Assembly (NCBI GenBank): GCA_017506865.1
Contig: JAFCMP010000490.1
Span: 124,001 to 188,000, forward strand
Length of the DNA stretch: 64,000 nt
Direction: 5' to 3'
DNA from: Tribonema minus
Taxonomy: Eukaryota > Sar > Xanthophyceae > Tribonematales > Tribonemataceae
A program made the translations under genes and the position numbers. Positions within the stretch are counted from its first letter, which is position 1. The number at the start of each line of letters is the position of its first letter. Under the pieces are notes generated by a model. The model was given only the letters and a program-made list of their open reading frames with translations. It was not told the DNA's origin and did no database searches. Shown here in pieces: positions 10,705 to 35,731 of the stretch.

Positions 10705-10990
10705 AGTGAGGTGCAGCAACAGCCCTTGCTTCACGGTGAGCAGTGCTGAGCCACGTGTGGCAGCAAATGCTGGTGTTGACAACGGCGAATGAAGCCCATG
10801 GTAATGGCTGGAGAAGCAGCACCACTGGATCCGCAATCAGCACCTGTGTGCCAACACAGTGGAGCTGCGTGCAACGAGGCAAGGCAGCACGCGAGAACAA
10901 GTGCCGAGTGAGGTGCAGCAACAGTCCTTGCTTCACGGGAAAACGTGCTGAGCCACGTGTGGCAGCAAGTACTGGCGCTGACTACGGCAA
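10705..10990 (+). repeat. Two tandem copies, period about 200 bp
   Basis: The block GTGAGGTGCAGCAACAG followed by CTTGCTTCACGG and CTGAGCCACGTGTGGCAGCA occurs near 10708 and again near 10910. It lies inside the 2-kb insertion and does not encode a recognisable protein. Confidence 0.7.
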
Positions 10991-11228
10991 ATACAAACCA
11001 TGCATGGCGGGGAAGCTGCAACTTGGTGTTTCGTGAACTACACGTAAGGGTTAGGTTTAGCCCCAGTGCAACTGTTGAGCAAGCTGTACCCATGGCGTGC
11101 GCTGCCTTGACGGACGGAGCGTGTCGTGTTGTGTTCCGACGATGGGCTGCCACAGAAAAGACCAAGTTAAGCATGCAGATATGCAGCAAATTGTGGTTGG
11201 TGGATTTTGGCAGCAATAAACCTCCATA

Positions 11229-11760
11229 GGTGGTGCTTGCCAACTGTTCGCAACAGCAACTGGCCTGGCTGGCTGAAGCTGGAGCCATGATTCAAAATAC
11301 AAGCCTGAGGCTTGCAGAGCTGCATGCTGTCAAATGAGGCAGTAAGCAGGCAGAAGACTGCGATCGATTGACTTGGCGACCCACCAGTCTTGAATTTTCA
11401 TGGCTGGCACTTGCCAACTGTTTGCAACGGCGACCGGCCTGGGCTGGCTGCAGCTCAAGACATGTGCAACATGCGAGGCTTGCAGAGCTGCCAGTGCATG
11501 CTGTCACACTGGGCCGTGTATGCAGTGAGCACGCATCAGGTTGCGGTCGGTTGAATTGGCGACTCATGAGCATTGCACTGCGATGGCCGGTCCTTGCCAC
11601 CTGTTTGCGATGGTGACTGCCTTGGGCTGACTGCAGCTGAAGACATATGCGAGGCTTGCGGAGCTGCCTGTGCATGCTGTCACACCGGGCCATGTATGCA
11701 GTGAGCACGCAGCAAGTTGTGCTCGGTTGACTTGGCGACTCGCAAGCTTTGGACTGCCAT
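11229..11760 (+). repeat. Nearly three tandem units of about 182 bp
   Basis: The landmark CTTGCCAACTGTT recurs near 11229 and 11411, and as CTTGCCACCTGTT near 11594. In each unit it is followed by a GAGGCTTGC-GAGCTGC block, a CATGCTGTCA block and a GGTTGA(C/A)TTGGCGACTC block. The repeat lies inside the 2-kb insertion. Confidence 0.75.
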
Positions 11761-12244
11761 CTGGCAGCAGGTGCCATGGTCATGCATTCTTCATGAGGCC
11801 AGGTGATACCAACAACGCACTGGTGTCAACAGCATCATGTGGTATGAGAGCAGCTGAGGCGCAGACCAAGCTGGCACAGCAGGACGTGATAGCACACTTC
11901 TGATACTGCCATGAAACCTGCATGGAGTAAGTCCTCTGGACAGTGCATGCGCTTGAAGCTACGTAAAGTGGTATCAACAAGCATGTGTGCTGCACTCCTG
12001 CTTTGCCATGCTTGCCAACATCTTTGTCACATGTGCCGCCTCCTGTGCCCCCTGCTTCCACTGCTGTGCATTGACAACGGTGTGCCTGTCTGCATGGACA
12101 GCTTTCTAACATGCTGCAATACGCAAACCCTGCCATGGAATTTCCAAAGCTTGTGAGCAAACACAATGCTCTTCTTGCGTTTTGTAGCACCATGGTGCGC
12201 TCTATCTGCACGCGTCCCTAGGACTTTCCCCCAGCCCGCAGGGC

Positions 12245-15200: not shown

Positions 15201-17530
15201 TGGCAGACTTTGGACCAGAAGTCAGTGGAGGGCTTGCCCTGCGCTGACAGCGTGAACTGCTCCAGGATGGGCGCCAGAAGGCCTGACCATTCGGCCATCA
15301 GGCCGTCGCCGGCATCGAAGTCGGCCAATCGCTTCGCGCGCGCCTCTATCTCCTGCCAATCAGAAAGCTCACCGAGGAGTGTCACTGATGGAAGGCCGCA
15401 GGAGAGCCTCATCTTAAAGCTGAAGTACTTTTGCATGGCGGCCATGAGCACCACGGATCCAACCACCTGCGCATGGCAGTGGATTTCAAGGTCATCGTGG
15501 CTCAGCGCTTTGGCAGGTTCTTGCAACAGTTAATGACCCCACCGGCAGGGCCTGCTGACTAATTCAAAGGCAATTGATAGCCTGTCGGACACTCGACGAA
15601 CAGAACCAACGACATCTGAGGCGTAGAGGACCTGCTGAAGGGCACATCACAACAACACAAGGAATCACAGCATGATGATGCATACTCCTACCTTGTCATG
15701 GTCCGTGGTTGTCGTGAATCCAGGTAGCACCCATTCCCTGATGCTGGGATCCTTGATGTTCTTAGCGATCTCGCCACTCATCAGCGTCGCCAGCGCAGCA
15801 TAGTCCGCAGTGAATAGCGAGCCGAAGCCATCAACCACCAGCTCTTTCTTCCCCTGGAAGTCGACGAAGATGGGACGGAGCTTCTCCGCGTGCAGGTTGA
15901 CATAGTAGCTGAACTGGATAGTAATGGCAGACCACACATCATCAGGACGGATGATCAGGTGGTGATGCTCGTTGTAGGCGTGCACTATCGTGTCCACGAA
16001 GCCGTTGCTCTTGGTCATGTACGTCGGCTCCGATGCATCTGGCAGGGAGCTCGCGATGAAATCTTTGCTGTTGGCCTCCTGCTCCGGACGACCGTATTGA
16101 GTTACAACAGCGGCATCGTGAACCGCAACCTTGAAGGTGCTGGACATGCTGAAAATGACGAGGCTGATCAGTACAGTGAAATGACGAGGCTGTCACTGTA
16201 TACCGAAAGGAGAAGTGGGAACGTCCCACTTGAAGTGTGTGACCCACACGGCTGGGCTGGTCATGTGGCACCATGCGTGCGCGCCCATGCTGCCGACGGC
16301 CGAAATCCATGCCTTTTGGAACACCAACTTGAAGGTGCAGGAGCGCACAATCGCGGCCCCGGGGGCGGAGCGCAGGGGTGGCACTGCAGAGGGGGGCGGC
16401 GGCGGCGACGGCAATGGCGGCGCTTCGGCGTCACCGACTCGGACGTCTGGTGGCGACAACAGTGGCGGCATTGGCGGCAGCGGCGACAGACACTGTCATT
16501 TCTGCTTTGTAGCACTCGACGGAGACACGGTGCGCATTGAACAGCGGGCACCACCGATAGTTTAGTAAGTCACCTGCAGCAACTCGAATGCCTGCGCCGG
16601 CGCAGATGGTCTGACTCTTCGCGGCTCCGGAGGCAGCGGCCGCGGCACGGGAGGCGGCTGGCTAGGGGTGCCGCCTCTGGGGGCTGCAGCCGCGAGATAC
16701 CTGCGCAGTGTCGGTGTCGCCAACGGCGAGCGCGCCCGGCGGCGCGTCACCTGGCTCCGCCGGACCTGGCACGGCCGCGCTGGAGTGTGTGCGGCGCATG
16801 CTCAGCGGCTGCGGCAGGCCGTACAATTAGACCTGGACAATCGTTACACAACCAGGTAGTGCGGCTGCCGCCAACTTTAAAGTGCAACTGCAGCAGCGCG
16901 GCGGTGCCACCACGCCGCTGCTGATCCGCAACTACGTGGCGTCAGAGGCTGCGGCGGTGCTCCCACTGGCAGCGGCGGCGCTGCAGCATGCGTGAACTGC
17001 AGAGGGCGTGCAAAGCCGTTGTGTCCGGACCCCGTGAGCTTCGGCCGTATTCTTGCCGGCGGCCGCGACGTCAGTCACTGTGGCATGCACATATGTCATC
17101 AGTAGCTCTGGTGGTGGAGCGGCGGAGGTGCTGTCTCCGCCGGCCGCGCCGTGAAATCTAAACGCTGACGCCGGTGCAAGCGCCGGCGCGTGGCACAATT
17201 AGGTGGCCAGCCCGCAGCAGCAGCGGCGGCACCAGGCGGCGGAAGGGGGCACAGGTGGCGGCGGCGGCGGCGGCGGCGCTCGCGCATTTTCCATGCCATG
17301 TTCAGTGCCATCGCTCCTGGCGTATGGACGTGCGCACACTGTTGGCAACATCGAGCCAGCCGCCAAGGATTTGTATCGATTCACGTAAGTGACCGTCAGT
17401 GACTGTAGCGTAAGCAGCCATTATGATAGCACCAGCAGCCGCTGCGGCAATGGCGGCAGTGTTGGTTGGAGGCGCAGCCGCTCCTGCAGCAGCAGCAGCA
17501 GGCTGCACTACCGACGTATGGCGGCAAGCG
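12245..17530. repeat. Tandem unit copy 2
   Basis: The complete 5.29 kb unit, from TATATATGAGACCAGCGG to the GGCGGCAAGCGTTT end, directly followed by copy 3. It is nearly identical to copy 1 over 7.1-10.2 kb and lacks the 310-bp insertion. The first 1.3 kb (to 13553) contains no recognised gene; a poly-C run lies near 13431. Confidence 0.85.
13554..16147 (-). CDS. DUF4419 family protein, copy 2 (N-terminus truncated)
   Basis: Exons 16147-15692, 15466-15093 and 13839-13554 join in frame to 371 residues. The protein ends DKPEVAAK without the extra intron of copy 1, and has a few extra residues (NTTDG) before the EWPFVDTS segment. The DUF4419 hallmarks are those of copy 1. As in copy 1, the sequence upstream of the first ATG differs from copy 3, and no in-frame signal-peptide start remains. 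This is the only one of the three copies without a stop or a new intron in the conserved part. Confidence 0.75.
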
Positions 17531-20500
17531 TTTCAACGTATATATGAGACCAGCGGCAACGGCTGCAGGCGGCGCGGTCGCTCTAGCGCCGGCCGCTAGT
17601 GCGCAGCCATCTTCGCAGCTTGCGGTTGCCAGTGAACCAGCGGCCGCGGCGGCAGCGGCACCAACTACAGCGGCAGTGACACAGCACACCTACTCGTACG
17701 GTCCCCATGGGCATGGCGGTCCTATAGTAAACAGTAACAGCAGAAGCTGATGCTTGAAGGTCCTCCTGCGGTCGACCCCACTGACACGCCACCCAGGAGC
17801 TTACGTCGTAGTACCCGAATGGCACTGCAAGCTAACAACCATGGCCACACATCTGACAGGCCGGCTGCTGGCAAAACAGCTCAGAATGACAGCAATATAA
17901 GCAGTGCAGATGCACAATACATCACCTTAAAAGTCTTAGCAACACACAGTTGGCCTGCTTCGCGGCGTAATGCACAGTTGCCCATTTTGCTGCCATGATG
18001 ATGTGCATAAATTGTGTGCGTACCCGCCTGTCACCATACGGCCTAGGAACTTGAAGGTGGGCGCCAAGACTGAGCCTGATGAATCCCATACCTCTTGGGA
18101 ATAGGATGGATACACTGTGTTAAAAAATCACGCACAGGCTAGCACACAGTAGTACCAACACCACATGCAAAGGCAACAGAGGCAACTGAAAGGCGACACA
18201 CAGACCCCGTGTGCTGAAAAGGAGTAATATCATATAGTAGGCATGAAAACGTGAACTCTGCCAGCTCAGCATCGCTGAGTCATCACGCTCCAAGATCTTC
18301 AACACATCTGGGACAAATCTCAAACAAAACCACAAGGGAAAGTGCAATGCCAAGTGCACAACTTGAGGTGCAACCTGACTGCACACCAAAACAGAGCTCG
18401 TTTCAACGCACTGTGGCTGTCACAGTACAACCATTGGGTTGCTCTAATACAGGCACGGGCACACATGGTTTTCTTGATTCACAAGGAGCGTTATACCGCT
18501 CCGTCTCCCTCAAGGGCTGAGTGGCTTTCCACATACTTGCGGAGCTCTACATATTCTCCTGCAAATTGGATGCTTGAGGGCAGCAATTGCGTAGTATCAC
18601 ATGCTGCTACAGGACACAAACAATGCTCAGATGCTGCAGCGTTGATCAACGCTAACAAAACAACACTTCGAAGTAAGCCAATTGCGTCCACATGGCCTCG
18701 CAACACCTCTGTCCTTCCCCCCCCCCCGGGTCCTCCGAGACGTGGGTGGCCACTGGATTGCCAGCCTGAGACGCAATCACACGGCAACCGTCCTGCTGCT
18801 ATGCAGACACCTCAGCATCAGACAGATTCGATGCCTACTTAGCTGCCACCTCAGGCTTGTCCGTCGCAAGCACAAGGCGCCAGTGCAGCGCAGGTTGCAG
18901 CCCTGTGCCGTCCACTATCGTGCAGCCGAAGTGTCCTGCAGTCAACGTGGTCTTGTATTCCGTGCCGTGATCGTCGACGGTCACGGGCACCGAAACTGTG
19001 CCCGAAGGGATGTCGCTCGTGTCGACAAATGGCCACTCCGGCTGCTGTTCAGCGGTACCATCCGTGGTGTTTGTGGCTGCCGGTGCAGCATCCGCCCATC
19101 TATCTTTGAAAAGGTACAACCTGGCGCGCGATAGCAACATTGGCACGACAGTCGACCAGACGGATACATGTCAGCAACTTGACAGCAAGCTCACATGCGG
19201 GCCAACAAGGAGCAGCAAGTAGGGGCAGGATCATCACGATGCATCTGCACAGCAGCACCAGCAGCTTGTCGGTGAATGTCACATCAGGCTTCGTGAACGC
19301 AACTGATGTTCAGCCTCACGCAACCAGTAAAAGCGTGACCGGCCTCAGCAGGCAGCCCCCATCGGATTCAACACAACCAACCTAACCATAACCATTATAG
19401 ACAACACCCTCAGGCCAAAATGATTGTTTGTGGCGCTACGATGGCCTGTCACACAGTCGGGACTCGTCGCGACGGTGACGGCGACCCTGACCCTAACCCT
19501 AACCCTAAGCTCGACGCGCTCACCCTGTCGCGCGAAGACGCGCGCACGCTGTGGGCAGAGTGGGAGTAACCCTAACCCTAGCAACTCTACTAGGTAACTG
19601 TAGCCCCAACCCAGCGACGCGCGCCATACTCATGTACACGGTCGAGTGGGACACGTCGTTCAGGAGCTATGCGGCCGCGTAGCGCCAGGCGCTTGCGGTG
19701 CAGCAGTGGACCAGATATCACTGGAGTGAACCAGCTGCAGGCCCAACAGATGGGATGTGTCAGCTCTTGGCCTCAGCTCTTGGCCTCCATCTCAAGCCAT
19801 CATGGTCTACAACGTTCACTGCCAATCTAAATTGAACTTTGCTTCAGTTGCAGTGATACAAGCCAGGCTGTACAGTGCTATCCCTGTTCAGAAGCGTTGG
19901 CTGTTCTGGGAGGCCTCGAGGGAAGTGCGCAATACGACACTTGAGCAGTTACTGCAGCACTGCGCGCCTACTTAGGATCTCTGATTATGTCCAGGCGTGC
20001 GATATTCATGACTAAAAGGTACATGTTTGCAGCAAGAGTCAAACTCGCAACTCACTCATTCCACCCGTGCACCAAGGCTTGGGGCGCCTTGCTCATATGC
20101 CATCATCATCACACACCATACAACTGCAAAGCGGATTGTTTGGCAAGCAAGTGTGCTATGTGTTACTGGCCGGGGGTGTCACCAACCACCGTGTCTCTGC
20201 AGCAGTACCATGCCTAATAGTAGTGGATGACAGCATCTTCAACTTCAAGTTGTCACAGACTTGACGTGTGTAGTGACAGTTCAACTTGTCACACAGAGTT
20301 CTCACTCACCCCAGCGAGGCTTTGCTGCGCCCCACCCACTCCCCTTTCTCATTGAACACCGCAAAGGCCGTCACCCAGCCGCTGAGGTACCTAGGCCCAG
20401 ACCCGCCGCCGATGTGATGGCAGACTTTGGACCAGAAGTCAGTGGAGGGCTTGCCCTGCGCTGACAGATTGAACTGCTCCAGGATGGGGGCCAGAAGGCC

Positions 20501-21412
20501 GGACCATTCGGCCATCAGGCCGTCGCCGGCGTCAAATTCGGCCAATCGCTTTGCGCGCGCCTCTATCTCCTGCCAATCAGAAGGCTCGCCGAGGAGCGTC
20601 ACTGATGGGAGACCGCACGCGAGACGAAATTTATAGCTGAAGTACTTCTGCATGGCGGCCATGAGCACCACGGATCCAATCACCTGCACAGGGCAGTGGA
20701 TTTCAGGGTCATCGTGACTTAGCGCTTTGACAGGTTGTTGCAACAGTTAATGACCCCACCGGCAGGCCCTGCTGACTAATTCAAAGGCAGTTGACAGCCT
20801 GTCGGACACTCGACGAACAGAACCAACGACATCTGAGGCGTAGAGGACCTGCTGAAGGGCACATCACAACAACATAAAGAATCATAGCATGATGATGCAT
20901 ACTCCTACCTTGTCATGGTCCGTGGTTGTCGTGAATCCAGGTAGCACCCATTCCCTGATGCTGGGATCCTTGATGTTCTTAGCGATCTCGCCACTCATCA
21001 GCGTCGCCAGCGCAGCATAGTCCGCAGTGAATAGCGAGCCGAGGCCATGAACCTTCAGCTCTTTCTTCCCTTGGAAGTCTACAAAGCTGGGGCGGAGCTT
21101 CTCAGCGTGCAGGTTGACGTAGTAGCTGAACTGAATGGTAATGGCAGACCACACATCATCAGGGCGGATGATGAGATGGTGATGCTGGTTTTAGGCGTGC
21201 ACTATCGTGTCCACAAACCCGTTGCTCTTGGTCATGTATGTCGGCTCCGATGCATCTGGCAGGGAGCTCGCGATGAAATCTTTGCTGTTGGCCTCCTGCG
21301 CGCCACCGCGTTGAGTCACAGTAGCGGCATCGTGAACCGCAACCTTGAAGGTGCTGGACATGCTGAAAGTGACGAGGCTGATTAGCACCAGCGCGATCAA
21401 GAGAGCGCACAT
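17531..21412. repeat. Tandem unit copy 3 (shorter, more diverged)
   Basis: It starts at TATATATGAGACCAGCGG and ends at the start codon of its DUF4419 gene; the GC-rich 1.3 kb that ends copies 1 and 2 is absent. Relative to copy 2 the offset changes from about 5281 to 5217 between 14.2 and 15.0 kb, a net loss of about 64 bp around the telomere-like tract. Up to 18834 no gene is recognised. Confidence 0.8.
18835..21412 (-). pseudogene. DUF4419 family protein, copy 3 (signal peptide kept, premature stop)
   Basis: Exons are 21412-20909, 20683-20310 and 19120-18835. This copy alone keeps a hydrophobic N-terminus starting MCALLIALVLISLVTFS, upstream of the MSSTFK that starts copies 1 and 2, so the ancestral protein was probably secreted or endomembrane-directed. 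A TAA at 21193-21191 replaces the Tyr codon of the VHAYNEHH motif (TAC in copies 1 and 2) and cuts the product after about 73 residues. The rest stays open and conserved (for example [15 protein letters not shown] and HHIGGGSGPRYLSGW). A recent nonsense mutation is the simplest reading. Confidence 0.7.
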
Positions 21413-22117: not shown

Positions 22118-25100
22118 ATGAGGAAGCGACCTCTCTCTTCGTCAGCCGTCTCGACAGCTGTGTCTGGGTTTGCGTTGCTGGCATCACTGCTGCTGACGGG
22201 CGTGGCGAGGGCAGCTCACGGCGATTTTCGAAGGCTGAGCTTACAGGGGCTGCTGGAGTGCGATGGTGGCAATGCGGCTGCGAGGGGTGCTGCTGAGCGA
22301 TTGAGAGGCGGTGCGGCGTTACCACAGGAACCACCGGAAGCGGTTGGCAAGCAGGAGCACAGAGAGCAGCTATATGAGGCCTACAACATGCTGCACTCAC
22401 TAGCTCAGGTGAGAAAACCAGTCGAAAACATCTTCTTTGTAGCCAGATCGAGCGCTCAATGGGTCCATGTGCGGATGCGTCAGTGACTAAGCGGCAGTTG
22501 CACGCACACTGTCCAACTTCTAAACAGGCAGCACCAAATGGCAGTTGCCGTGTGTGCACCTGTGTTTTACGAGGAGCACCTGGCTAAATCAGCGGCAGTA
22601 ACAAGAAGCAACTGGCGTGCATCGGCAGCTACAGTAATCTGTCAGTTACGTCAATACTTCAACTAGAGCTTGAAGCCCGATGCCAAGCGACACACCAAAG
22701 CCACTCTTCAATCACGCTTGCGGTAATTGTCGCGTCTTTACATTAGACAAGCTCTGCATCAGTGCTGCCAGTCAGTGAGCCCCATGCGCTCCACACATCT
22801 GCTCCAACTGTCAAATATGTACCGTTCTGCTGTGTCGCTGTGCAGCACACCTGAATTGCTAGAGAAGATGTAAGAGGGGTGCATGCGGTGCCTACATTGC
22901 ATGACAGCGCAGAAGAGTGGTTGCGCATGAATATGTCATGCTGAACACAGCAGCGAACAATGAGAATAAACCTCATTGTTGTTTGTTGGTACGGCGTTGA
23001 CAATAGTCACGCTGCACACGGTGTGCACCGAGTGCCTTGACGCAACGGTTCGACACGTAGCGTATGACAACAAGCTACTTGTGCATATTTGTCAATTCGT
23101 AGGCTGTCGCACGTTGTGAAGAAATGTGTAAAGCAGTGCTTGGCTCAGCTCGCACTAAGTATCGTGTAATGTGGAAGTTACGATACGGCGAGAGCATGTC
23201 GCTGTGTGACCGACAGTCTTGCGCACGGCCAAGCGCGCGGGCAACTGCGTCAACAAATAACCTCATAGGTCATTATCAAGAGACCAAGTGAAATGAGAGC
23301 TTGGGAGCAGCATGTCGCATTAGTTAACGTCACAGTACATGTGCAGCGGTACTACCACGTTGATTGCAAGTTAATTCCGTGTTGCCAACACAAGGTGCCA
23401 GCGTGGGCACGCAGCCCCCAAGACGCTGGCTGATGTGTTGGTTGGCGATTATCGTAGCATCACAAATCTGCAACAGCTGTGGCTCCGTATTCTTCGCACA
23501 ATGCATGCAAATCGCAGGGCTGCGTCGGACATCTGATTGCGTCACTGTCTGATGAACAGGGTTCTGAAGCCCCCACAAACTGATTGCTGGTCTCACCCGC
23601 ATGTGCACAGTACTTGCACACACCACTTAATTCCCTGACGGTGCCAACAGTGGGTCTTTGCAGTAGCGACCGGGCGCTCGCACAGAGGCGCTCCTGAAAA
23701 GAAGAAAAAACAATCAATGATCCGTACTAGTAGGATTGGGTGTCGTCCATCACCTGCACCTGACCCCTGAAACAGCGAACGTGCAAACACTCAATGCCAA
23801 CGCATGCGCATTACATGCGCACGTCACCCCCTTGCAGGACTTTCACAAGCCATTTGATTCGCCGGCGGTGCTGGTGGTGGGCCACCAGACCAGCGGGAAG
23901 AGCGCCTTAATAGAGGCGCTCATGGGGTTCCAGTTCAACCAGGTGGGGGGGGGGACCAAAACGCGGCGGCCGATAGCACTGCGCATGCAGTACAACCCGG
24001 ACTGCGACCAGCCGCGCTGCTATCTGACGCTGGAGAACGGGCGGGAGGAACCGCGGTGAGTCACTGATTTGAACTTGAACTTCAGCTGTCATCTTAGCAT
24101 ACTTCAACACTTGAGCTGGTCGTCAACAGAGAAAGCGCTGCGAGCATGCTTCGATACCCAATTGAACATCCTCTACTTGGCTGCAACACGCTTCTGCCAC
24201 ATTAAGCACAGTTCATGTTGAACAGCAGCAGCAGTGGTGGCATTGATCAGGTGGGGGGGGGGGGGGGGCGAAACGCGGCGGCCGATAGCGCTGCGTATGC
24301 AGTACAACCCAGACTGCGACCAGCCGCGCTGCTACCTGACGCTGGAGATCAGGCGGGCGGAGCCCAGGTGAGCGTATTTCGACACTGAGTTGAACTTGAA
24401 CTTTGGTCTATAATTTGCGCGGAGCCAAAGGTGACACGCCCCTGGCCTTTTCTTCAACGCATACATGGCAATGGAACACGGTATGAGCATATGGATTGAA
24501 AGGCAGCACACCCTGGGTGATGGCAATCAGCTGGGCTGTCCGGCTGCCGTGGACGTGGGCGGTAGCGACCACAATCACTATTACTGCAGGTCATTTTTTG
24601 CTTCACAGTGCAGTGCGTGTTGAATGAAGAAATTCTTGAGCCAATGATGTACTTTGATAAAGTACAGTATGGGAATCACGCATGTTCTCATCGAGAAGTG
24701 CTGCGCTCTGTGGTGAATGTAGGCTGGTGTTTCTACAAAGGCGCTTACCTGCCCCTCTCGTGACCTAGCTACAGTACTCGTCAAACATATCACTAATGTA
24801 TGGGGTGATGCTGCCTGTGCCACAGGTTCTGTTCGCTCTGTGCCTGCAGCTGACAGTTACCCCAAGGTGAAGTGCAACTCTGCACGGTGATGCCCCAGCC
24901 GCAAGAGCAAGCCAGATTGCAACTCTCAAGTTTAGGGTATGATGTCAGGAGCTGGACTCTGTGGCATAGTCGCAGCATGCAGTGAGAGCATGGTGATGAT
25001 CTTGCCACTTTACTTGAAGGTTCTTTTGAAGTGCCTTACTTGAAGTTTTGCTACTCCACGTCTGTGCTCTGTGGACCAGGTCTCTGTCAGAGATCCAGGC

Positions 25101-28100
25101 GTACATTGAAGCGGAAAACAAGAGGCTGGAGAGGGACCCAATCAGGTATGTATGAATGTATGCATGTATATGTTGAGGTACATGTCGAAGTATATCATGC
25201 TTGCACCTTTCATTTATGCACCCATGTGTCGCTAGCATCGCAGCCATCTCTGTTGTGCTGTGCTCATGAACTTCTGTAGCATAGAGTTTACACAGCTGCT
25301 TGCGTAGCGTAAGGGATAGGGTTAGGTAAACCCTACCCTCTGCTGCGCTGCGCCGAGTTGCACGTTACTCTACCGTGCGTGCAAGTTGCTGGTGCCTGTG
25401 CTGCACACGACACCTGGCTTGCAAGTTCAGTGTTGTACCATGTGAAGCGGCATCCGACACGAAGCGGCGACTCCGCTTTAATCAGCTGAGCATTGCGGCC
25501 ATATCTGCGAACCCTAACATCTAGGTCCATGACGTCTGCAGGTCACCATGTCGGTGGCAGCCACGTTTGCAGAAGGTGCACCCATTGTCAGCCACATTCT
25601 AGGCTGTGTGCATTTGCTGACACATGTGCACGAGGTATGCGCGTGAAAGACTGACTTCCTTGCAGCATGCAGAGTATGATGCTTTCTGAATAGATTTACT
25701 TGCCTGATGTCAATGGCCTTCGTGTTAACGACCGATGGAATATTAAAGTTGCGCCATGTGACTGCACAGGTCGTTCGACGCGCGAGAGATCATGATCCGC
25801 ATGGAGTACCGGTTCTGCCCCAACATGATCCTCATTGACACCCCCGGCCTCATTCAGGCACCCAGGGGCAAGCATCTCAACGCTCAGCAACAAGCCCTGC
25901 TTCAGGTATGTGTGAGTATGTGTTTAGCCGCAATATGATACTCATTTACACCCCGGGCCTCATATGTACAGGCGCCCAGGGGAAAACATATCAGATGCTC
26001 AGCAACAACAACAAAAAAGCGCTGCCACAGGTATGTACGAGCGTGCATGCGCCTACATACCACTCTGTACTGTTTGCTACTGGATTGGGGGCAAGCATCT
26101 CAATGCTCAGCAAGTGCCGCTACACGTGTGCACAGGTGTCCATGCATGCACCTACGTGCCTATTCTACAGTGCTGCCGTCAAAGCAGATATCTGTCTGGC
26201 CCCACCTAACCCATAATGGAGCTGATGTCGAAATTGTAGTAGACCGACTTGTTCGTCCTCAACTCACATCACCATAAGTTCAACAGCAAGTTCAACATTC
26301 TCCTCAGGGCGGTCCTGTCTCACACAAACTGCATGAGCCCGCATGCATACTTACACACATGATGCACAATGGCACTGCACCATCTGCACTGTTTTGCCTG
26401 CCGCTTTCGGCGCGCTTACCGCCCTGCATGAAGGCACGCAGCTAGACTAGTCATGTTGCTTGTGGCTGTGCACATCATCAAGTACTCAGGCTTTGCAGTG
26501 TTTCATGCGACTGAGTGAGCATGTTATGAATGCTGCTGCGACTGCTGTGTACTCTGTGTAGACCACATTCGGAATACCTGTGTTTTGACTTCTGGGTGCA
26601 ATGTAACATTTGCCATGCAGCCCCCCTTACGCTTAGGATCAGACCCTAGGTTTAGGGTTAGGGCTCGGACTCTGCATACAACATGCTTCGAGTACGTACA
26701 CCTACATAGGGTATGTAGGGTATGTTGTGCACTGCATACCTATACTATGCTCATTTGTGTGATCTGATGATGCTGAGAGTCCACAGGTGGCCAGGGAGAG
26801 TGAACAGCTGGTTCTGCAGAAGATGCGGTGCGAGGACTACATCATACTGTGCGTCGAAGACACCACCGACTGGAAACACGCAACGACGCGCAACGTCGTC
26901 ATGCAGGTATGTAGGTAGCCAATCAACGCATACCCTGTATACATACTCTACGTTTCTGATCGTGCATTGAGGACACCACCGACTAGAAACACGCGACCAC
27001 GCGCAATGTTGTCATGCAGGTCAGTGTGCATACCCTACATACCCCCAATGCGCTCTTTGTGCAACTGGTAACTTGAGTCGGCAATGTGCCATGATAAACA
27101 ACGTTGTTGTGCAGGTATATATGTAGCGTGCGTACGTACACTGCATACCCCAATGCGGTCTTTTCATTCGTGCATACTTTCAGTTGATAATTGCACTGCT
27201 TGGAGAATATGATTCCAACTATATTTAGCGGGCCTCGAGTAGAAGTCGTGTAAACCATGATCTATGGTATCAAAGCGCTGCCACAGTGCCAGCGGGAGCA
27301 ACTTCAGCCCTTATCTGTGTCTGTGGGTGGCTGAAGTATGTATGCAAGCACCTGAAGTTTGCAGTGTACTTACAATGGCGGCTTACATTTTGTGTTTCAT
27401 AACATGAACACAGGTGGACCCCTCTCTGGTCATGACATACATACATACATACATACCCCATATGTGTGGCACGCAGGTGGACCCCTCTCTGGAACGCACC
27501 GTGCTGGTGTGCACTAAGCTGGACATGACATACATACATGCCCCTCTCTGGTCATGACATACATACATACATACCCCATATGTGTGGTGCGCAGGTGGAC
27601 CCTTCTCTGGAGCGTACCGTGCTGGTGTGCACTAAGCTGGACACCAAAATACCGCAATTCAGCACGGGAGAGGACCTGCAAGACTTCATCGAAGCGCCCC
27701 TCATGCAGAAGATGTATGGGTCGCTGCTTGGCGGGTGAGTCATTGAGTCCAAATCATTGAGTACTTGGAGCGGTGGATCATCGAGCAAAGTCAGTGAGTG
27801 CACGAGAACAGCGTTACGGGCCCGTCGTTCAGGACAGACATGAGCCGCTGCAGCGTGGGTGAGTCATTGAGTAAAGTCAAAGTTTTTGAACACACACAAG
27901 GAGACAAGGCATTATTATGCCTTGTCCGACACAAACATGATGCGCCTTGTCAGGTACAAGAGGCATGGGCTGCTGCACGGCAACAGAAAGTCATCAACGC
28001 TTTTTATGATCGCACACAACGTATATGTGCGCTGAGTGGTTGATTGATCTAACACTAGCAACACCTGGTTTCTCGTTGATTTGTCAACAGCCGGCTGTAG

Positions 28101-31100
28101 TACGTGCGCTGAGTGGTAGATTGATCTAACAATAGTAATACCTGGTTTCCTGTACATTTGTCAACAGTCGGCTGTAGTACACCACTGCAATGTACAACAG
28201 CAGTGGCGGAGTCGCAGCACGGTCAATGGTACAGTGGTTCAGAGTCCTTCGTTTGCGCATCAAGGCACCTCACTCTACTTGCAAGAGTCACGCTGATGTA
28301 TGGTGCAGCAACACCACAAAAAGGGTTTTTGATTCGTTTCCACTCATGCCATGTGCATGATGCAGGCCGTGCTTCGCCAGCGTGCCGTCAGGCCGTGTGG
28401 GCCGCGGAGTCATTCATGAGGCAACAATGCGCCAAATAAGCACGCACTCACACATGTGCTTACGTGTGATTGCTAATCGAGCATCACTACTATGTGCATA
28501 TCGCAGGCCGTTTTTCACTAGCGTGCCGTTGGCCACGGTCGCAAGTCATTCGTGAAGCAAAAACGCAGCAAATAAGCACACACGCTCACATGCGCATACG
28601 TGCGTGCTACACGTTGCCTAATCGAGTACAATTACTTCGTGCACATTGCAGGCCGTTCTTCACCAGCGTGCCATCGGGCCGCGTCGGACGCGGCCGCGAG
28701 TCCACCTACCTGAGCAATGAGGCCTTTGTAGCAGGCGTCAGACGCGCCGAAAGGGACGACTCCATGGGCGTTGCGGCAAAGCTGGGGCCGGCGGCGGGGG
28801 CGTACTGCCTGCCGCGTGTTGGCGTGTCACGGCTCAGGCGGTTCCTGGAGCGTCGCGTTGAAGATTGCTACAAGTGAGTTGAAGTAGTAGAAAGGGTGTA
28901 CCCATGCTGCGCATTGACGTGTCACAAGCTTAGACTGTTATTGGAGCGCCAAGTTGAAGATTGCTGCATCTGAGTTGAAGTACTGGTAAGGGTGACGCGT
29001 GTCGGCGTGTTACGGCTCAGGCGGTTCCTGGAGCGTCGCGTTGAAGATTGCCACAAAAGAGTTGAAATAGTAGGAAAGGCGTGTGCCTAGCAACCGGCTG
29101 AGATCAACCGGAAGCCGATGTAGTGAGAATTCGAGATCTCCTGCAGGTTCACTGGCCTCCACAATTCACAAGGTCAAAGGTTGCCTGTGCAACGTCCAAC
29201 GTCGATATGCCTTGCACGTTTATGCTCTGTGATTACTCTCGAGTGGGGGAGATGCATTTGCCGAAGCGCTGCTTGTGCATCTGACCGGCATTGCGTCATC
29301 ACATGTTGTGCATGCACGGCAGGCGGCATGCAATACTGCATCGTGTACTCTGCATGTCCTCTTTGTGTACCCCGCATGCACCCACTCGAGTACTACTGAA
29401 CCCTGCTGCCTGCGCAATCTGACCGCCATCGCCACACGGTGTACGCGTTTCTGCATCTGCAGGCGCAACGTGGCGCGCATCGTGCCGCTGCTGCAGCGTG
29501 AACTGACTAAGGCGGAAGCGCGACTGCTGGCCACGGAGCGCGAGATGTCGGTTAGTCAGCACTGCTATTAGCCACGTTCTCGCTTCAAGTGTGGCCTTGG
29601 AACAGGAGCAATTGTGATGGAAGGTCTTCACTGGTAATGTGACATCACGTACATGCATGATTGACAAACCTACGTCGGCACTGCTATTAGCCATGTTGTC
29701 GCTTCAAGTGTGACCGCGTCTCGTGTGTCAGCACGAGCTGGTCCAGGCAGACATACGGCTGGTGACCACGAGATATTGCCACATGTGCTTGCAGCTGTGC
29801 AGATGAGCTCAGAAGAGCGTGTGTCGCTGCAACCAATTCACAAGTGTGTGGCCTTTGAAACAGCGGTTGCCGGCATTGGCACAATGGCATGATGGCGCAT
29901 CATCTTTGCAGTCGGAAGGTGTGTAACCCTAACCCTAACCCTTAATGTGTCACAGCGTACGCAGTGGTACATAGGTAGGTACCGTGCAACGGTAAACTGC
30001 AACTGTCGGCGCGCCACAAGCACAGTTCTGAGGCGCGAGCACACGCAGAGGAACATCGCGCGCACCTCTTTTTCCTGAATTGCGTGAATTTCCTGCGTTT
30101 TCTTACAGGCGCTTGAGCATTATCGCAAGCACTCTGTTTTTATTATTATTGAGCTGCATGGATTTTTCTGCGTTTTCTCACAGTCAAGCCACATTGCAGG
30201 CACTCTTTTCCCTGAGCTGCGTGATTTTTCCTGCGTTTTCTCACAGGCGCTCAGCCTGGACCAGCTGAAAGCAGGCGCAAAGGACTACAGCGAGCACTAT
30301 CTTTCCTGAGCTGCATGCACTTTCCTGCGTTTCCTCACACACGCCTATCTTTTCCTGCATTGCATAAATTTTCCTGCATTTTCTCACAGGCGCTCAGCCT
30401 GGACCAGCTAAAAGCAGGCGCGGAGGACTACCGCGAACACTTTGTGCGCGCACTCGGCAGCGCCATACAAGGCACCATTCAGGCGCCGCCGGACCAGTTT
30501 GGCGAGACCCTGGAGAGCGAGCAGTTACAGGCCGGCAGTTTCATCGACGCCGGCCGCGTGGACACCGACCAATGGGATCGCCTCATGGAGGTGAATTACA
30601 TACTAGTGATATAAGCGTTGCTTGTATTCAAAGTGTATACTTCTACGTCGAAGTATATAGAGCTGCCTTGAGTCTGGCCGCGTGGACACCGACCAATGGG
30701 ACCGCCTCATGGAGGTGACATACAATACATGCGAAGCTTGGTGAACGCGCGCATGTATCATTGTACTTCTACTTTGTTCACTTCCAAAGGGGCGGAACCC
30801 CAGCTACTGCAGAACAAGTATACTTCGAGGTACTTGAGCATCATTGGTGCCGGCGGTGCGCACAACGACCAATAGAATCACCTCATGAAGGTGAGCGCAT
30901 GCATGTGCATGGCTGGGCCCCAATATAGCATCTCCCTCACCGCCTCTTCAGGGGCGATTAGTGCGTGCAACATGATTAGAGTTCATCATACATACCCACA
31001 TGCACAAATACACATGCACGCTACCTTGCATTTTTCATCGTCAGATTCTATGACAGGTGGCATCATCGCTCGTCGCCGGCTGCGCGAGTTAGCTTCAGTG

Positions 31101-34100
31101 TACATACCTACATGTATACGTTGCAATGGCCTGTTCAGCGATGCGCGCAGGGCCACCTTTACTACACGAGTTTGCCGCCTACATGCATACATGCCCTCAC
31201 TTAAGTCCTCACAAAACGGCTGTGCAACAGGCGAAGGTCGGCAACAGCGCACACCGCTTGTTCGGCGACAAACGCCATACTGCACAAGTTCGGCTTTTAC
31301 ATGTATATTAACATGCACACATACGCAAATACCTTAGGCTGAATGTTCGCGAGGTTGTCTTCACCTTCTACTGTGCATGTTTACCTACATGCACGCATAC
31401 CCACATACGTACCCTAACTGAAGTTTGCAATTATCATGACAGGTGGAGGTCGGCAACAGCGCTCACCGGCTCTTCGGCGGCGCGCAGTACCCACCTTTAC
31501 TTACAAGTTCACCTTCTACATACATTCGTACCCTTACCTGACCCCCTCTCAAATGGCTGTGCGACAGGTGGAGGTCGGCAACAGCGCTCACCGCCTGTTC
31601 GGCGGCGCGCAGTACCACCGCCTGCTGCGTGAGTTCGCGTTCGCCGTGCGCCAGATGTATACCTGCATGCTCGCATACCTACATACGTACCCTAACTTAA
31701 GTCTGCAATCCTCACGACAGGTAGAGGTAGGCAACAGCGCTCACCGCCTGTTCGGCGGCGCGCAGTACCACCGCGTGCTGCGCGAGTTCGCGTACGCCGT
31801 GCGCCACATGTCATCCCCCGAGATCACCGAAGACGAGATCGCCAACGCGGCGGGCATGGGCGACATGCACGACGGCGTGAACTTCATGCGCGCGGCGTGC
31901 GTTATCGCCGTGGAAAAGGCGCGGCTGGGCTTCGATCCCCTGCTGGAGAGCTTGCGAGTCAGGGCGGTGCACGTGCTGAAGCGCGTGTTTGCGGTGGTGG
32001 AGCACATGTTGAAGAGGGATGGGCTCGCCATGAGCGAGGGCCACCAGAAGCCGTTCTCGTTCATCGTGCGCCGCATCTACGAGAACTTCATCGAGGTGCG
32101 TGCTGCTATGGTTTCAGGCGTGGGCATGTATGCATGCATTCATAAGAACTTTATAGAGGTATGTGTGTACGCTTCAGATGTAGGCATGTAAGTGCGCTTT
32201 CTAATTTCATGATGGTACTACCAGAAGCTGTTCTCATTCATTGTGCACGAGAACTTCATGGAGGTATGTACGTATGCTGCATGCATATAGGTATGCATGT
32301 AGGTGCATTTCTTGATCTCATAGCCGCTCTCGTTCATCGTGCGGCGCATCTACGAGAACTTCGTTGAGGTGTGCTGTGTCTGTAGGTGTGCCTCAGAGGT
32401 AGGCCTACATGTATGAGAACTGGATGAGGTATGCATATACGCTTCAGGTATAGGCATGTATGTACATTGGGGTTTAAGCATGAATGAGAGCCATCCAAAG
32501 CCGTTGTCATTCATCGGGCATCTGTGCATACCTGTTGTTTGCTTCAGGTGAAGGCAAGTATGTATTGCAACAAGTGAGAGGTGCGCCACCTGCATATTCA
32601 TTGGTGCATGCAGTACGTCTCATACTTCGTACTTCAAAAAAGTAGTTCACATTCTGACAACAGTCCACTCCGCAGTCCACACTCAGTTCACACCATGATC
32701 ACCTTTACCCGTCAAATGCACACCTGGGGTCGCTGACGTTTTTTTCCTCACACAACACATGTGCAGGCCAGCATGGACGACTGCCTGATGCAGTTCATAT
32801 ACAGTGTCCACCATGATTACGTGTACCCCATCAAATGTACACCTGACCTCCACTCAACCATTCTTCACTTACACGCCCTCTGCAGGCCAGCGTGGACGAC
32901 TGCCTGGCGCAGTTCATATACAGTACACACACGGTACATGTACCTGTCAGAATGCACATTTACCTCACCACCACTCAAACTTTCTGCACTCAACTTGACC
33001 TTTGAAGGCCAGCGTGGACGACTGCCTGGTGCGGTGCCGCGACGATCTCAAGGCGCTCACGCGCTTCGTCACCTGGGACCTCGGAGAACGTTCCTCGGGC
33101 GCGCTCCACAGATCTCTCCCCGACACCACCACCGTCCAGATCTGCTCCCTAGCCGTGCAGCAGCGCAACCGCCGCCACGGCGTCAGTTCAGGATCGCGCG
33201 GCGGAACGGCGCCCGCCAGGGAGAACGTTCTTGACCAGTGGCAGGCTGCCAATAGCGCGGGGTTGGGAGGCGCGGGGGCTGTGACCAATCAGAGGGACTA
33301 TCTGGACCTGATGCAGCTGATGGAGGAGGCGGCATGCACGCGCAGGTGTGTGAATTTACGCAGTGAATGAATGAGTTCATGAATGCATGCATTGGTTGAG
33401 CAGACGATGGAGGAGGCGGCGTGCACGCGTAGGTGTGTGAATTCACGTGGTGAATGAATGAATTCATGAGTGAATGCATTGTTTGAGCAGACGATCGAGG
33501 AGGCGGCGTGCACGCGCAGGTGTGAATTCATCAGCGAAAATCACAAGTGAATGCATTGGGCAGATGCCGGTGAAGCTGCGGCTGACTGACACGAATGAGA
33601 AGAGTGGCACACTCATTTATAAATGTGTGCACATGGGCTGTTTCATCACTGGCCCAGTACGGGTGCGGATGGAATGGGGATGATGATGCTCAGCAGTGGT
33701 GGCAGTGCTCAGATGCCTTCTACCGATGGCATGCTCTGCAGTTTTCTTCTTCTGCAAGGCATGCATTCAGCCCCCAGCACAGATCTATCTATGCATTGAG
33801 CAGTGTGGAAACTCAACAACTCATATATGCCCATGGTGTCCGGGCGCATGTGGCGTCGGGCCTGCAACATGAGACTGGAGCAATTCAGAGCATGCACGTC
33901 AGCAGTACACACCAGCAGGCACTCATTGTTGAACAAATAAATTGTTTCTCCCGTCCTATGTACGTGTGCACGTTGCAGCAATGCGGACAGGACGGGGGCA
34001 GTGGTGGCAGCGCTCGTGCGCCACGTGATGGGGTCGTGGCGCGAGCACTTTGCAAGGAGCGTCGCCATGAAGTTCAACTGCTTCTTCCTCATGCCCTTTG

Positions 34101-35731
34101 TGGACACCTTCCCGTTCTACCTGCGCACCGAGCTAGACAAGGTGAGCGTCTGCAAGCCCTGCGGTGGTCAACGCCACTGTCAGTACCAAAAACGTCGTTG
34201 TGGATGCTTGACGTAGCTCAGGGGGAGTGGGGTGCGATGCACAACGGGACATGATATGGGGGCACCCCTCTTTGGCAACTTCAATACTGACTTCAAAATC
34301 ACTCATGAACGTTTTTGAACTTTGCCAAAGCCCGTGCAGCGCTCGCAAGGGCGATGCTGGCTGACTCTGTCGTCAGCTGCTAGCCGCCAAATTGAACTTC
34401 AAGGTTTGATCACCTCATCTGATGAGCCTAATCATCTATGTATGCGCTGCACAGGTCTACAGCGGGGATCTGGCGGGGCTCTTTGACATTGCCGAGGCAC
34501 GCGCAGCGCTTGCAAGGCGACGTGAGGAACTCATTGCGGAGTGCAAGGCGTGCCACCAGATTCAGGTGTGCATGTACTTCTATGCTTTTGCACAACGCTC
34601 AGCCATGTAGGGTTAGCGTGAGGGTTAGGTCTGGAGTGCAAGGCGTGCCACCAGATTCAGGTATGTATGTATGTATGTATGCATATGCACAACGCTCAGC
34701 CATGTAGGGTTAGCGTGAGGGTTAGGTCTGGAGAGCAAGGCGTGCCACCAGACATCAGGCATGTATGTATGTATGCTTGTGCACAACGCTCAGCCATGTA
34801 GGTCTAGCAGAAGCATTAGGTGTCGAGAGCAAGGCGTGTCACCAGAGAGCAGGTATGTGTGGGTATGCATATGCACAGCTGCAGCATGTACTTCATTTAC
34901 TTCCGCTGGAGGGGCAGAAACCCTATGCCAATCCCCACATGCGCTGTGCATGTCGCTGGACACACGCAGCATGTACTTTTTATCAATTCTCGCTCAGGGC
35001 GCGTAAAAGCCCAGATGAATGGTATCCAAGTTTGCTGTATGGAATCTACATGTCATGTGACAGTCTGAAAGTGTCTCAATGATGACCGCAGCATGTACCT
35101 ACACGCCCCCCACACCCCTCTCTCACCCACCATCCCGCCTGAACCCCCCCCCCCCCCCCACCCCCCCTTCCCCCTCCAGGGCAAGTTTGACCTCATCAAC
35201 GCTCAGCTCAACGCGGCGCACGCGCTGTACGACAGAGACGCCGCCGACACGGCCGACGCGCTGGCATCGCTCGACGCAGGCGCAGGCGGCGGCTGGTCAT
35301 CACTTGAACTTGAAGATGATGAAGACAGCGCCGACGAGGGTTTGGGGGCGCTGTTCGGGGAAGCTGCGGGGGGCGATGTTGCGACTGCAGAGGGCGGGAG
35401 GGGGGCGTCGCAGAGAGCGGGGGACTCCCTATTCGATGACCTCTCGGAGGAGGAGAAGGGGGGCGTGATCGTCAACGCGATGCGCTACGGTGACGACTCG
35501 GACTGGGACCTGTCCGAGTTTGAGTCTGAGGCGCCGGAACTGCAGACACAATCGCGGCGGCGGCAGCAGCGATATCCGCCGTACGTTGCTGCCAGGGGGG
35601 ATTCGCCGCAGCCTGCTGTGAGCTTGGGGGGCGGTGGTGCAGGGCGGGCTAGTCAGCGACCCACCGCTGCTGCGTTCAACCGCCAGTCCTCTAAGCGGCA
35701 TCGGCAGCAGTGGCGCAACAACGAGCTGTAG
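22118..35731 (+). CDS. DRP5B: Plastid-division dynamin-related GTPase (ARC5/DRP5B type), 14 exons
   Basis: DRP5B forms a contractile ring on the outside of the dividing plastid. Exons: 22118-22408, 23838-24055, 25080-25145, 25770-25905, 26787-26906, 27595-27734, 28652-28873, 29463-29550, 30390-30590, 31721-32095, 33008-33345, 33979-34141, 34455-34565, 35180-35731. All junctions are GT-AG and phases agree, giving 1006 residues. The P-loop GHQTSGKS is at residues 112-119, DTPG at 215-218 and TKLD at 290-293. ARC5-specific stretches include LYEAYNMLHSLAQ, GFQFNQVGGGTKTRRPI, PFFTSVPSGRVG, APPDQFGETL, LFGGAQYHR and MKFNCFFLMPFVD. Two features are unusual. Residues 1-32 look like a signal peptide (basic start, hydrophobic 13-29, ARA end). 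The last 183 residues form an acidic then Gly/Arg/Gln-rich tail beyond the usual ARC5 end. Confidence 0.9.
24248..24368 (+). repeat. Echo of exon 2 (3' half plus donor)
   Basis: This repeats 23938-24058 with few changes: the poly-G run, AACGCGGCGGCCGATAGC, the TACAACCC-GACTGCGACC block and a GTGAGC donor. It sits in intron 2 and has no matching acceptor, so it should not be spliced as an exon. The poly-G run differs in length from the parent. Confidence 0.85.
25910..26135 (+). repeat. Two echoes of exon 4 (3' end plus donor)
   Basis: At 25910-26036 a degenerate copy of the CCGCAACATGATCCTCATT, CACCCCGGGCCTCAT, CAGGCGCCCAGGGG and CTCAGCAACAA blocks ends in CAGGTATGT. A shorter one at 26090-26135 keeps GCAAGCATCTCAATGCTCAG and ends in CAGGTGTC. 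Confidence 0.75.
26965..27125 (+). repeat. Echoes of exon 5 (3' end plus donor)
   Basis: At 26970-27025 the ACACCACCGACT-GAAACACG and GTTGTCATGCAGGT blocks recur with in-frame breaks (TAG for the Trp codon). A remnant at 27098-27125 keeps AACGTTGTTGTGCAGGTAT. Confidence 0.75.
27414..27535 (+). repeat. Two echoes of exon 6 (acceptor plus 5' end)
   Basis: CAGGTGGACCCCTCTCTGG occurs at about 27412 and 27475, the second continuing to ACTAAGCTGGACATGACAT before breaking off. Each copy is preceded by ACATACATAC repeats and followed by TCATGACATACATAC-type sequence. The true exon 6 starts at 27595 behind the same leader. Confidence 0.85.
27815..27875 (+). repeat. Echo of exon 6 (3' end plus donor)
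   Basis: GCCGCTGCAGCGTGGGTGAGTCATTGAG mirrors the real end of exon 6 (GTCGCTGCTTGGCGG then GTGAGTCATTGAG). The coding part is strongly decayed but the donor is intact. Confidence 0.65.
28365..28566 (+). repeat. Two echoes of exon 7 (acceptor plus 5' end)
   Basis: Degenerate copies at about 28365-28425 and 28503-28566 begin GCAGGCCGT and keep CAGCGTGCCGT or TAGCGTGCCGT, then a GGCCG-like block. They lie upstream of the real exon 7 (28652) with similar spacing, each behind an ACACGCTCACA or CATGTGCAT-like leader. Confidence 0.8.
28918..29090 (+). repeat. Two echoes of exon 7 (3' end plus donor)
   Basis: The second copy (about 29000-29085) is good: GGCGTGTTACGGCTCAGG, then CGGTTCCTGGAGCGTCGCG, then TTGAAGATTGCCACAAAAGA. 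The donor GT is lost there (AAGAGTT). The first (28918-28985) is decayed. Confidence 0.8.
29660..29715 (+). repeat. Repeat of the start of intron 8
   Basis: The intron sequence after exon 8 (CAGCACTGCTATTAGCCACG then TTCTCGCTTCAAGTGTG) recurs here as GGCACTGCTATTAGCCATG then TTGTCGCTTCAAGTGTG. A duplication therefore included the intron flank. Confidence 0.8.
30165..30300 (+). repeat. Echo of exon 9 (acceptor plus 5' end)
   Basis: TTTTCTCACAGGCGCTCAGC followed by CTGGACCAGCTGAAAGCAGG and GACTACAGCGAGCACT copies the start of exon 9 at 30390. The TTCCTGCGTTTTCTCACA leader also recurs at about 30090, 30165 and 30320. The copy has an intact acceptor. Confidence 0.85.
30676..30895 (+). repeat. 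Two echoes of exon 9 (3' end plus donor)
   Basis: At 30676-30720 the GGCCGCGTGGACACCGACC then AATGGGACCGCCTCATGGAG block and a GTGACA donor are almost unchanged. At 30850-30895 a more decayed copy ends CCTCATGAAGGTGAGC. Confidence 0.85.
31208..31655 (+). repeat. Three echoes of exon 10 (acceptor plus 5' end)
   Basis: Copies start at about 31232, 31443 and 31568; the real exon starts at 31721. Each has an ACAG acceptor followed by AGGTCGGCAACAGCGC and CACCG-CT-TTCGGCG. The third keeps the exon frame for over 25 codons (through the LFGGAQYHR motif). All share a CTCACAAAACGGCTGTGCAA-like leader. These acceptors could compete in splicing. Confidence 0.9.
32138..32440 (+). repeat. Four echoes of exon 10 (3' end plus donor)
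   Basis: Copies end near 32165, 32265, 32372 and 32435. The best one (32320-32372) keeps TCTCGTTCATCGTGCGGCGC then ATCTACGAGAACTTCGTTGA before GTGTGC. Others end in GAGGTATGT. The real exon ends at 32095. Confidence 0.85.
32762..32935 (+). repeat. Two echoes of exon 11 (acceptor plus 5' end)
   Basis: TGCAGGCCAGCATGGACGAC (about 32763) and TGCAGGCCAGCGTGGACGAC (about 32881) precede the real exon (33008). Both continue TGCCTG then run into GCAGTTCATATACAGT. Confidence 0.9.
33398..33535 (+). repeat. Two echoes of exon 11 (3' end plus donor)
   Basis: GGAGGAGGCGGCGTGCACGC followed by (G/T)AGGTGTG occurs at about 33408 and 33498 after the real exon end at 33345. The intron flank (GAATGAATGAATTCATGAG type) is duplicated with it. 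Confidence 0.9.
34326..34362 (+). repeat. Weak echo of exon 13
   Basis: GCCCGTGCAGCGCTCGCAAG then GGCGATG resembles the exon 13 stretch for ARAALARRRE (34498-34530). No splice site is attached. Confidence 0.5.
34628..34862 (+). repeat. Three echoes of exon 13 (3' end plus donor)
   Basis: GCAAGGCGTGCCACCAGATT with CAGGTATGTATG (34639) and two decayed copies (34736, 34830) follow the real exon end at 34565. A TATG microsatellite and an ACAACGCTCAGCCATGTAGG block are duplicated with each copy. Confidence 0.85.

Follow-up and report, generated by a model that had tools for sequence, protein, structure and literature searches.

Partial copies of exon ends beside splice junctions in Tribonema minus: probable junction-spanning tandem duplications that lengthen introns

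Introns of an ARC5/DRP5B-type plastid-division dynamin gene of Tribonema minus, and of other genes modelled in the same genome, contain diverged partial copies of the neighbouring exon end with its splice site, here termed echoes. We read the echoes, with a probability of about 0.7, as neutrally decaying tandem duplications that span exon-intron junctions, lengthen the introns and are directed to these places by the step in base composition between exon and intron.

Echoes in the dynamin gene, its paralogue and other genes

The window, a stretch of 64,000 nucleotides (C490:124001-188000) of the 158-Mb genome, comprises the dynamin gene on the plus strand in 14 exons (Table 1), with a single open frame of 1006 aa and GT-AG boundaries in every intron (13/13). 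The closest match to the encoded protein is Tribonema minus JKP88DRAFT_201174, an Ectocarpus relative bears the name ARC5, plastid-division dynamin, and a Chrysoparadoxa protein (75% identical) spliced onto the window DNA recovers 12/12 internal exons exactly; a PDB search with the whole frame gave no result. At 13/13 junctions the model coincides with P0001, the protein annotated in T. minus, which departs from it solely by the omission of 46 residues of exon 11. The corresponding codons, window 33155-33292, start with GT and end with AG, are absent also from the Ectocarpus protein and are present in the paralogue, Chrysoparadoxa and Ascophyllum, the stretch representing either an intron that is optionally removed or a mistake in the annotation.

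Self-BLAST at E<=1e-3 discloses 15 local repeat families in the window gene, 13 of which include the exon end at a junction, the other two being intron-interior. Echoes occupy 13/26 junctions and 10/13 introns, and comprise 22 exon-bearing copies, in good agreement with the roughly 25 counted in an earlier note on this DNA. They flank the donors of exons 2, 4, 5, 7, 9, 10, 11 and 13 and the acceptors of exons 6, 7, 9, 10 and 11, so that 13 of the 14 junctions named in that note are recovered; the remaining one, the exon 6 donor, falls below significance in this gene, yet is significant in the paralogue. The statement that nearly every intron is affected is too broad by three, given that introns 1, 3 and 12 carry no echo at this threshold. 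The exonic parts measure 21-114 nt, within the few dozen to about 120 bases first proposed, and the copies are diverged by ~5-30%; in the dynamin pair they are partial exon ends and not whole exons, as had also been stated.

Table 1. Dynamin gene, exons and local repeats in the window
Feature	Position	Strand	Detail
ARC5/DRP5B-type dynamin gene	22118..35731	+	Pfam Dynamin_N, relatives, protein-to-DNA splicing
Dynamin exons 1-7	22118-22408, 23838-24055, 25080-25145, 25770-25905, 26787-26906, 27595-27734, 28652-28873	+	
Dynamin exons 8-14	29463-29550, 30390-30590, 31721-32095, 33008-33345, 33979-34141, 34455-34565, 35180-35731	+	
Exon 2 donor echo	24254..24403	+	114 nt of exon, splice site and intron flank
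Exon 4 donor-side echoes, two	25914..26113	+	25914-26008, 26088-26113
Exon 5 donor echo	26962..27021	+	
Exon 6 acceptor echo	27419..27525	+	exon part 27477-27525
Intron 6 tandem duplication	28024..28180	+	entirely within the intron, no junction echo
Exon 7 acceptor echoes	28351..28527	+	exon parts 28366-28407, 28507-28527
Exon 7 donor echoes, two	28905..29087	+	exon parts 28905-28969, 28993-29056
Intron 8 repeat	29555..29715	+	starts 5 nt past the donor; classed as intron-interior
Exon 9 acceptor echo	30150..30298	+	exon part 30247-30298; more intron-flank copies at ~30038-30113
Exon 9 donor echoes, two	30676..30894	+	30676-30724, 30841-30894
Exon 10 acceptor echoes, three	31131..31658	+	exon parts 31231-31267, 31443-31491, 31568-31658
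Exon 10 donor echoes, two	32220..32463	+	exon parts 32220-32263, 32322-32368
Exon 11 acceptor echoes, two	32743..32913	+	exon parts 32767-32794, 32886-32913
Exon 11 donor echoes, two	33400..33530	+	exon parts 33400-33432, 33487-33519; period 87
Exon 13 donor echoes	34633..34890	+	within an array of ~3.2 copies, period ~94

A paralogue on C157 (L010) also displays echoes at 13/26 junctions, 10 of them the same as in the window gene (P=0.008). When the two paralogues are pooled at E<=1e-2, the donor echoes all lie downstream of their own donor (28/28, 75-581 nt in) and the mapped acceptor echoes all lie upstream of their own acceptor (15/15), the arrangement described in the earlier note. At paralogue-informative sites the echoes side with the gene that holds them in 179 cases and with the other paralogue in 40, which argues that most arose after the paralogue split, and most echoes of the two genes are thus probably independent in origin; those looking older or undecided are the window exon 2 donor echo and, in the paralogue, one donor echo each of exons 4 and 7. 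The annotated paralogue protein P0002 includes three echoes (exons 7, 11 and 13) as small coding exons, resulting in tandem peptide repeats of 12, 14 and 8 residues, of a kind found in 0/119 other relatives among the matches listed. Echoes are apparently liable to be predicted as exons in error, as may have happened in P0002, and an ab initio gene finder takes several echoes for small exons.

Solved-structure or paralogous proteins served to model ten more genes, namely (i) EHD_a, EHD_b and four DRP genes, taken from a Dynamin_N search, (ii) NAT10 and TKT, from an arbitrarily picked contig stretch, and (iii) CCT5 and CCT8, a biased sample because both were chosen after doubled exon matches had been seen in the CCT table; the dynamin pair constitutes the original finding. 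Across the 12 genes, echoes are located at 63/162 junctions: the dynamin pair as given above, NAT10 7/10, TKT 3/10, EHD_a 0/8, EHD_b 3/10, DRP_L015 2/8, DRP_L014 0/8, DRP_L016 0/8, DRP_L019 5/10, CCT5 10/20 and CCT8 7/18. Absence of the pattern from other genes, which would have told against the earlier note, is not what we find, since 8/11 other homology-modelled genes show junction echoes; the three genes of the 12 with no junction echo are EHD_a, DRP_L014 and DRP_L016. The 79 local repeat families in the 12 genes comprise 63 at junctions, 11 intron-interior and 5 of neither kind (exon-exon or exon-interior). Leaving out CCT5 and CCT8 gives 46/124 junctions and 46:8 junction to interior families; leaving out the dynamin pair as well gives 20/72 and 20:5. 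Recognisable local repeats account for 16,459/66,618 intron bases in the 12 genes, consistent with the earlier proposal that introns have been lengthened in this way.

In the DRP models small doubtful terminal exons were removed by hand, DRP_L019 being the least certain model, and DRP_L013, genes on L012, L017 and L021, and the predicted genes of C223 and C157 were excluded for want of a reliable model. Intron-interior repeats dominate some of the excluded ab initio models, including C157_1, with 12/12 families in the 'introns' of a doubtful model. Profile searches, which detect long echoes only, extend the sample: MCM profile matches, inspected by eye and without gene models, have echo-like neighbours at 3/6 loci (C445, C156 and C1), with a possible fourth case at C146, the pattern consisting of overlapping profile ranges with the exon tail repeated downstream and the exon head upstream, and a kinesin search with 132 matches gave two echo-like places (C511 and C246). 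The first part of L022-L026 (C223:1000001-1050000) is dense in predicted genes of 1-2 exons, unlike the other stretches examined.

Tandem duplication and neutral decay

The echoes are head-to-tail copies close to each other, and the mechanism that we propose for them comprises the following steps. Short tandem duplications of DNA, with periods mostly of 75-312 bp, would span the exon-intron junction, each leaving the exon end, its splice site and the adjoining intron sequence in duplicate, head to tail; the outer copy would keep the splicing role, whereas the inner copy would become intronic, be spliced out at little or no cost and decay neutrally. Recurrence at the same junctions, mostly independent in the paralogues, would lengthen introns from both ends. 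The earlier note had already suggested local tandem duplication across a splice boundary with one junction remaining in use, and the head-to-tail partial copies with a decaying inner member bear this out.

When an inner copy drifts freely from an outer copy that still encodes protein, third codon positions are expected to differ twice as often as each of the others. The substitutions at codon positions 1:2:3 in 77 exonic echo alignments of 10 genes amount to 123:105:223, which fits 1:1:2 (P=0.47), compared with 53:24:215 in real paralogous exons. Along 32 alignments covering both exon and intron, the divergence is 7.0% at positions 1+2, 16.7% at position 3 and 17.9% in the intron parts. The splice dinucleotides of the echoes are retained in 72/90 cases in the 12 genes (GT 39/51, AG 33/39), near the ~84% expected at 7-9% change per site, and read-through to the echo donor is open in 4/51 cases against 5.7 expected. 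An assembly artefact would sit badly with copies diverged by ~5-30% and with the 1:1:2 pattern.

The junction in use was assessed with EukProt proteins assembled from transcripts, whose listed identity across the query is 100%, with one residue different in TKT. Protein P0121 confirms all 10 modelled CCT5 introns and P0241 all 5 modelled TKT introns, neither carrying an echo residue, and the TKT protein reveals one additional intron upstream of the modelled part; this evidence concerns the main proteins of two genes (CCT5 and TKT), in which splicing uses the outer junction. The suggestion in the earlier note that splice sites are shifted is therefore not upheld, the outer junction being used in the homology models and in both transcript proteins, with the P0002 annotation as the exception. 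A TKT isoform, P0243 (C101 locus), agrees through the end of exon 5 and continues with 14 differing C-terminal residues, not found by exact search in three forward frames of a 30-kb C101 stretch; the ending is either a strain difference or an alternative exon. Taken together, the reading of the echoes as DNA-level head-to-tail duplications that decay neutrally is well supported in its steps by sequence, codon-position and transcript evidence.

Two alternatives bear on what the copies are and how they arose. Echoes could be functional, acting as cassette or decoy exons under selection for regulated splicing, which we regard as very unlikely. Many keep intact sites, the P0002 annotation counts three among its coding exons, several are mistaken for exons by a gene finder and indels are rarer than expected, with 6 gap events in 1643 columns of the exonic parts and 88 in 2804 intron columns, below the prediction from half the intron rate (P ~3e-6); on the other hand, the codon-position pattern is neutral, the splice dinucleotides decay about as expected, none of the echoes enters the two main transcript proteins, and the echo offsets by frame (28, 41 and 21; n=90) are uneven without favouring multiples of three (28/90). 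Coding function was accordingly rejected on the 1:1:2 substitutions and the dinucleotide decay. The scarcity of gaps may reflect a lower rate of indels outside repetitive sequence; positions 1+2 are slightly over-conserved (7.0% versus ~9%), and some echoes may be under weak constraint. RNA-mediated copying, in which reverse transcripts of mRNA or pre-mRNA are inserted locally, would fit the confinement to transcribed junctions, yet it is extremely improbable: 0/99 CDS-to-intron matches in 10 genes extend 8 nt or more to either side of an exon-exon join, which contradicts spliced mRNA as the main template, and the copies carry contiguous intron flank, an unspliced RNA template for local copying being possible. 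Six of the 99 matches, 20-27 nt long, lie on the minus strand, five of these at a single site of DRP_L015.

Junction bias and the composition step

The distribution expected of chance was simulated as random tandem duplication plus neutral decay in 10 genes, with units <=320 bp, age uniform to 0.35, indels at 0.12 per substitution and a search of 700 bp either side of the duplication. Among 2916 detected duplications 910 fall at junctions (31%; 910:2006 junction to interior), whereas 63/74 observed families do so (85%; P ~1e-21, families taken as independent). With exons masked, 29/37 families remain tied to a junction in 10 genes with homology models, or 21/37 under a strict abutting rule; the 8 genes besides the dynamin pair give 7/17 abutting families, or 11/17 counting matches that run into the exon. 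Ab initio models of 13 other genes place just 7/21 masked families at junctions, and the masked test was repeated on homology-built models because ab initio models can take echoes as exons. Young pairs are likewise concentrated at junctions, with a junction to interior ratio of 33:4 at >=85% identity and 16:2 at >=90%. The persistence of the excess in masked and in young pairs indicates a bias in origin or in very early retention, and not in decay. Two other sources were rejected as the main cause: (i) the low-complexity filter, given that the families stand at 63:12 without it, and (ii) microsatellites, which cover 4.0% of the donor side and 9.5% of the acceptor side within <=50 nt of a junction and ~1-3% further in. 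Junctions thus appear to have been struck far more often than random duplication with splicing shelter explains, an element that the earlier reading lacked.

The presence of echoes is associated with the drop in GC from exon to intron. Sorted by rising drop, the echo-bearing junctions run from 2/24 (no drop) through 7/25, 10/29, 18/32 and 14/34 to 12/18 (drop >0.20), giving P=4e-5 with junctions taken as independent; the rise is not strictly monotonic and represents a correlation only. Donors (35/81) and acceptors (28/81) of the 12 genes are affected about alike. Where a GC-rich exon gives way to a GC-poorer intron, the composition step could constitute a duplex-stability boundary at which replication or transcription pauses and template switching follows, and it is proposed as the director of the process because duplication is far commoner across the step than inside introns; we infer, and favour, the composition step as the cause of junction targeting.

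Two other accounts of the bias were weighed against this one. The first holds that duplications strike at random, exonic ones being purged and junction pairs staying visible longer as one copy is pinned; such shelter is real, and simulated junction pairs do stay detectable longer. As the sole explanation it is quite unlikely, considering that the simulation, with this asymmetry built in, places 31% of duplications at junctions against 85% observed, and that the excess survives both exon masking (29/37) and the restriction to pairs of >=90% identity (16/18), which also rejects slower decay of exon-bearing pairs as the main cause. The second makes duplication dependent on splicing itself, e.g., on transcript-DNA hybrids at splice sites, and not on composition. 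We consider it somewhat unlikely, although it deserves more credit than any other alternative: the ends of predicted CDS are poor in echoes (0/23 at 5' ends and 3/22 at 3' ends), compared with 31/64 donor and 27/64 acceptor echoes at exons >=90 nt. Against it, donors and acceptors are nearly equal, unlike the outcome of a step specific to one site, and echo presence follows the GC step, which is small at CDS ends. The GC steps predict 5.8 echoes at the 3' ends, with no clear difference from those seen, and 7.0 at the 5' ends, where selection against upstream starts may act. With steps as small as those at CDS ends, the echoes counted at stops fail to tell a composition cause from a splicing-linked one. 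One of the three 3'-end cases, on L019, is a mispredicted end within an acceptor echo, and the other two are on L017, where the terminal 68 and 25 nt of the predicted CDS recur just past the stop of two predicted genes, with no splice site.

Returning to junction-spanning duplication directed by the composition step, a broader formulation is that duplication in T. minus is targeted to exon-intron boundaries, whether through composition or through splicing, that it affects a large proportion of the splice junctions, some of them many times over, and that the introns are in consequence largely successive, eroding copies of their own ends; for this we see the odds as about even. If true, boundary-aimed duplication would constitute a distinct route of intron growth and splice junctions would be mutational hot spots.

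Relation to known systems

The Rogers model, and Hellsten et al. in 2011, reportedly describe intron gain via tandem duplication of an exon segment bearing AGGT. Gain of this type and the T. minus echoes share a short intragenic tandem duplication, one copy of which is spliced out, leaving the protein unchanged. They differ in that existing T. minus introns lengthen, with no new intron seen, and in that the duplicated unit includes intron flank and extends over a real junction, the echoes keeping their own intron side; the expected signature, an intron whose 3' end equals the upstream exon tail and whose 5' end equals the downstream exon head, is not observed in the two paralogues. Gao and Lynch in 2009 are said to have surveyed internal gene duplications in eukaryotes, some covering exon-intron boundaries; these are likewise partial within-gene copies, whereas in T. 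minus 63/79 families sit at splice junctions, donors and acceptors alike, and consist of partial copies in decay. Introners represent recurrent sequence gain tied to splice sites, with near-identical copies in unrelated introns. The repeated gain linked to splice sites is common to both, but T. minus echoes match their own junction, and matches between introns of the window gene (E<=1e-3) consist of just two simple-repeat stretches.

Decoy or pseudo-exons are also exon-like intronic pieces with intact splice sites; the T. minus echoes, by contrast, copy the adjacent exon end, appear to decay neutrally and are not seen in use in the main CCT5 and TKT proteins. Whole-exon duplication and mutually exclusive exons differ in that copies of the dynamin pair hold no complete exon. 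Tandem genomic duplication in which one copy is spliced out is an established route of intron gain (PMC3443670), with cases in Drosophila (PMC2891723), and fungal relatives of introners, or introner-like elements, are described (PMC8469720). The earlier view of an undescribed mode of intron growth hence stands in part: intragenic tandem duplication is known, whereas no report of junction-biased echoes, or of such recurrent, neutral growth to a comparable extent, was found in full-text searches, which take in few subscription papers.

To our knowledge, the origin of intron sequence, transposons apart, is poorly known, and T. minus displays source material for introns in several stages of decay. 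The pairing of a constrained exon with a free echo provides a built-in clock, with which one can measure how often, when and where junctions are duplicated and test what causes the bias. The echoes also suggest that splicing in T. minus tolerates many near-intact decoy sites beside the real ones.

Elsewhere in the window, positions 3446-21388 contain several long direct repeats spaced ~5-13 kb apart (e.g., 6275-10235 versus 13567-17533, 98% identity, and 12251-16174 versus 17535-21388, 90%). On the minus strand, positions 50240-58471 comprise two long adjoining open frames of 1563 and 1179 aa with internal repeats, both containing FG-GAP_2 domains and the first also fn3, and diverged copies of these frames (65-66% identity) are located at ~61294-63139 in the opposite orientation.
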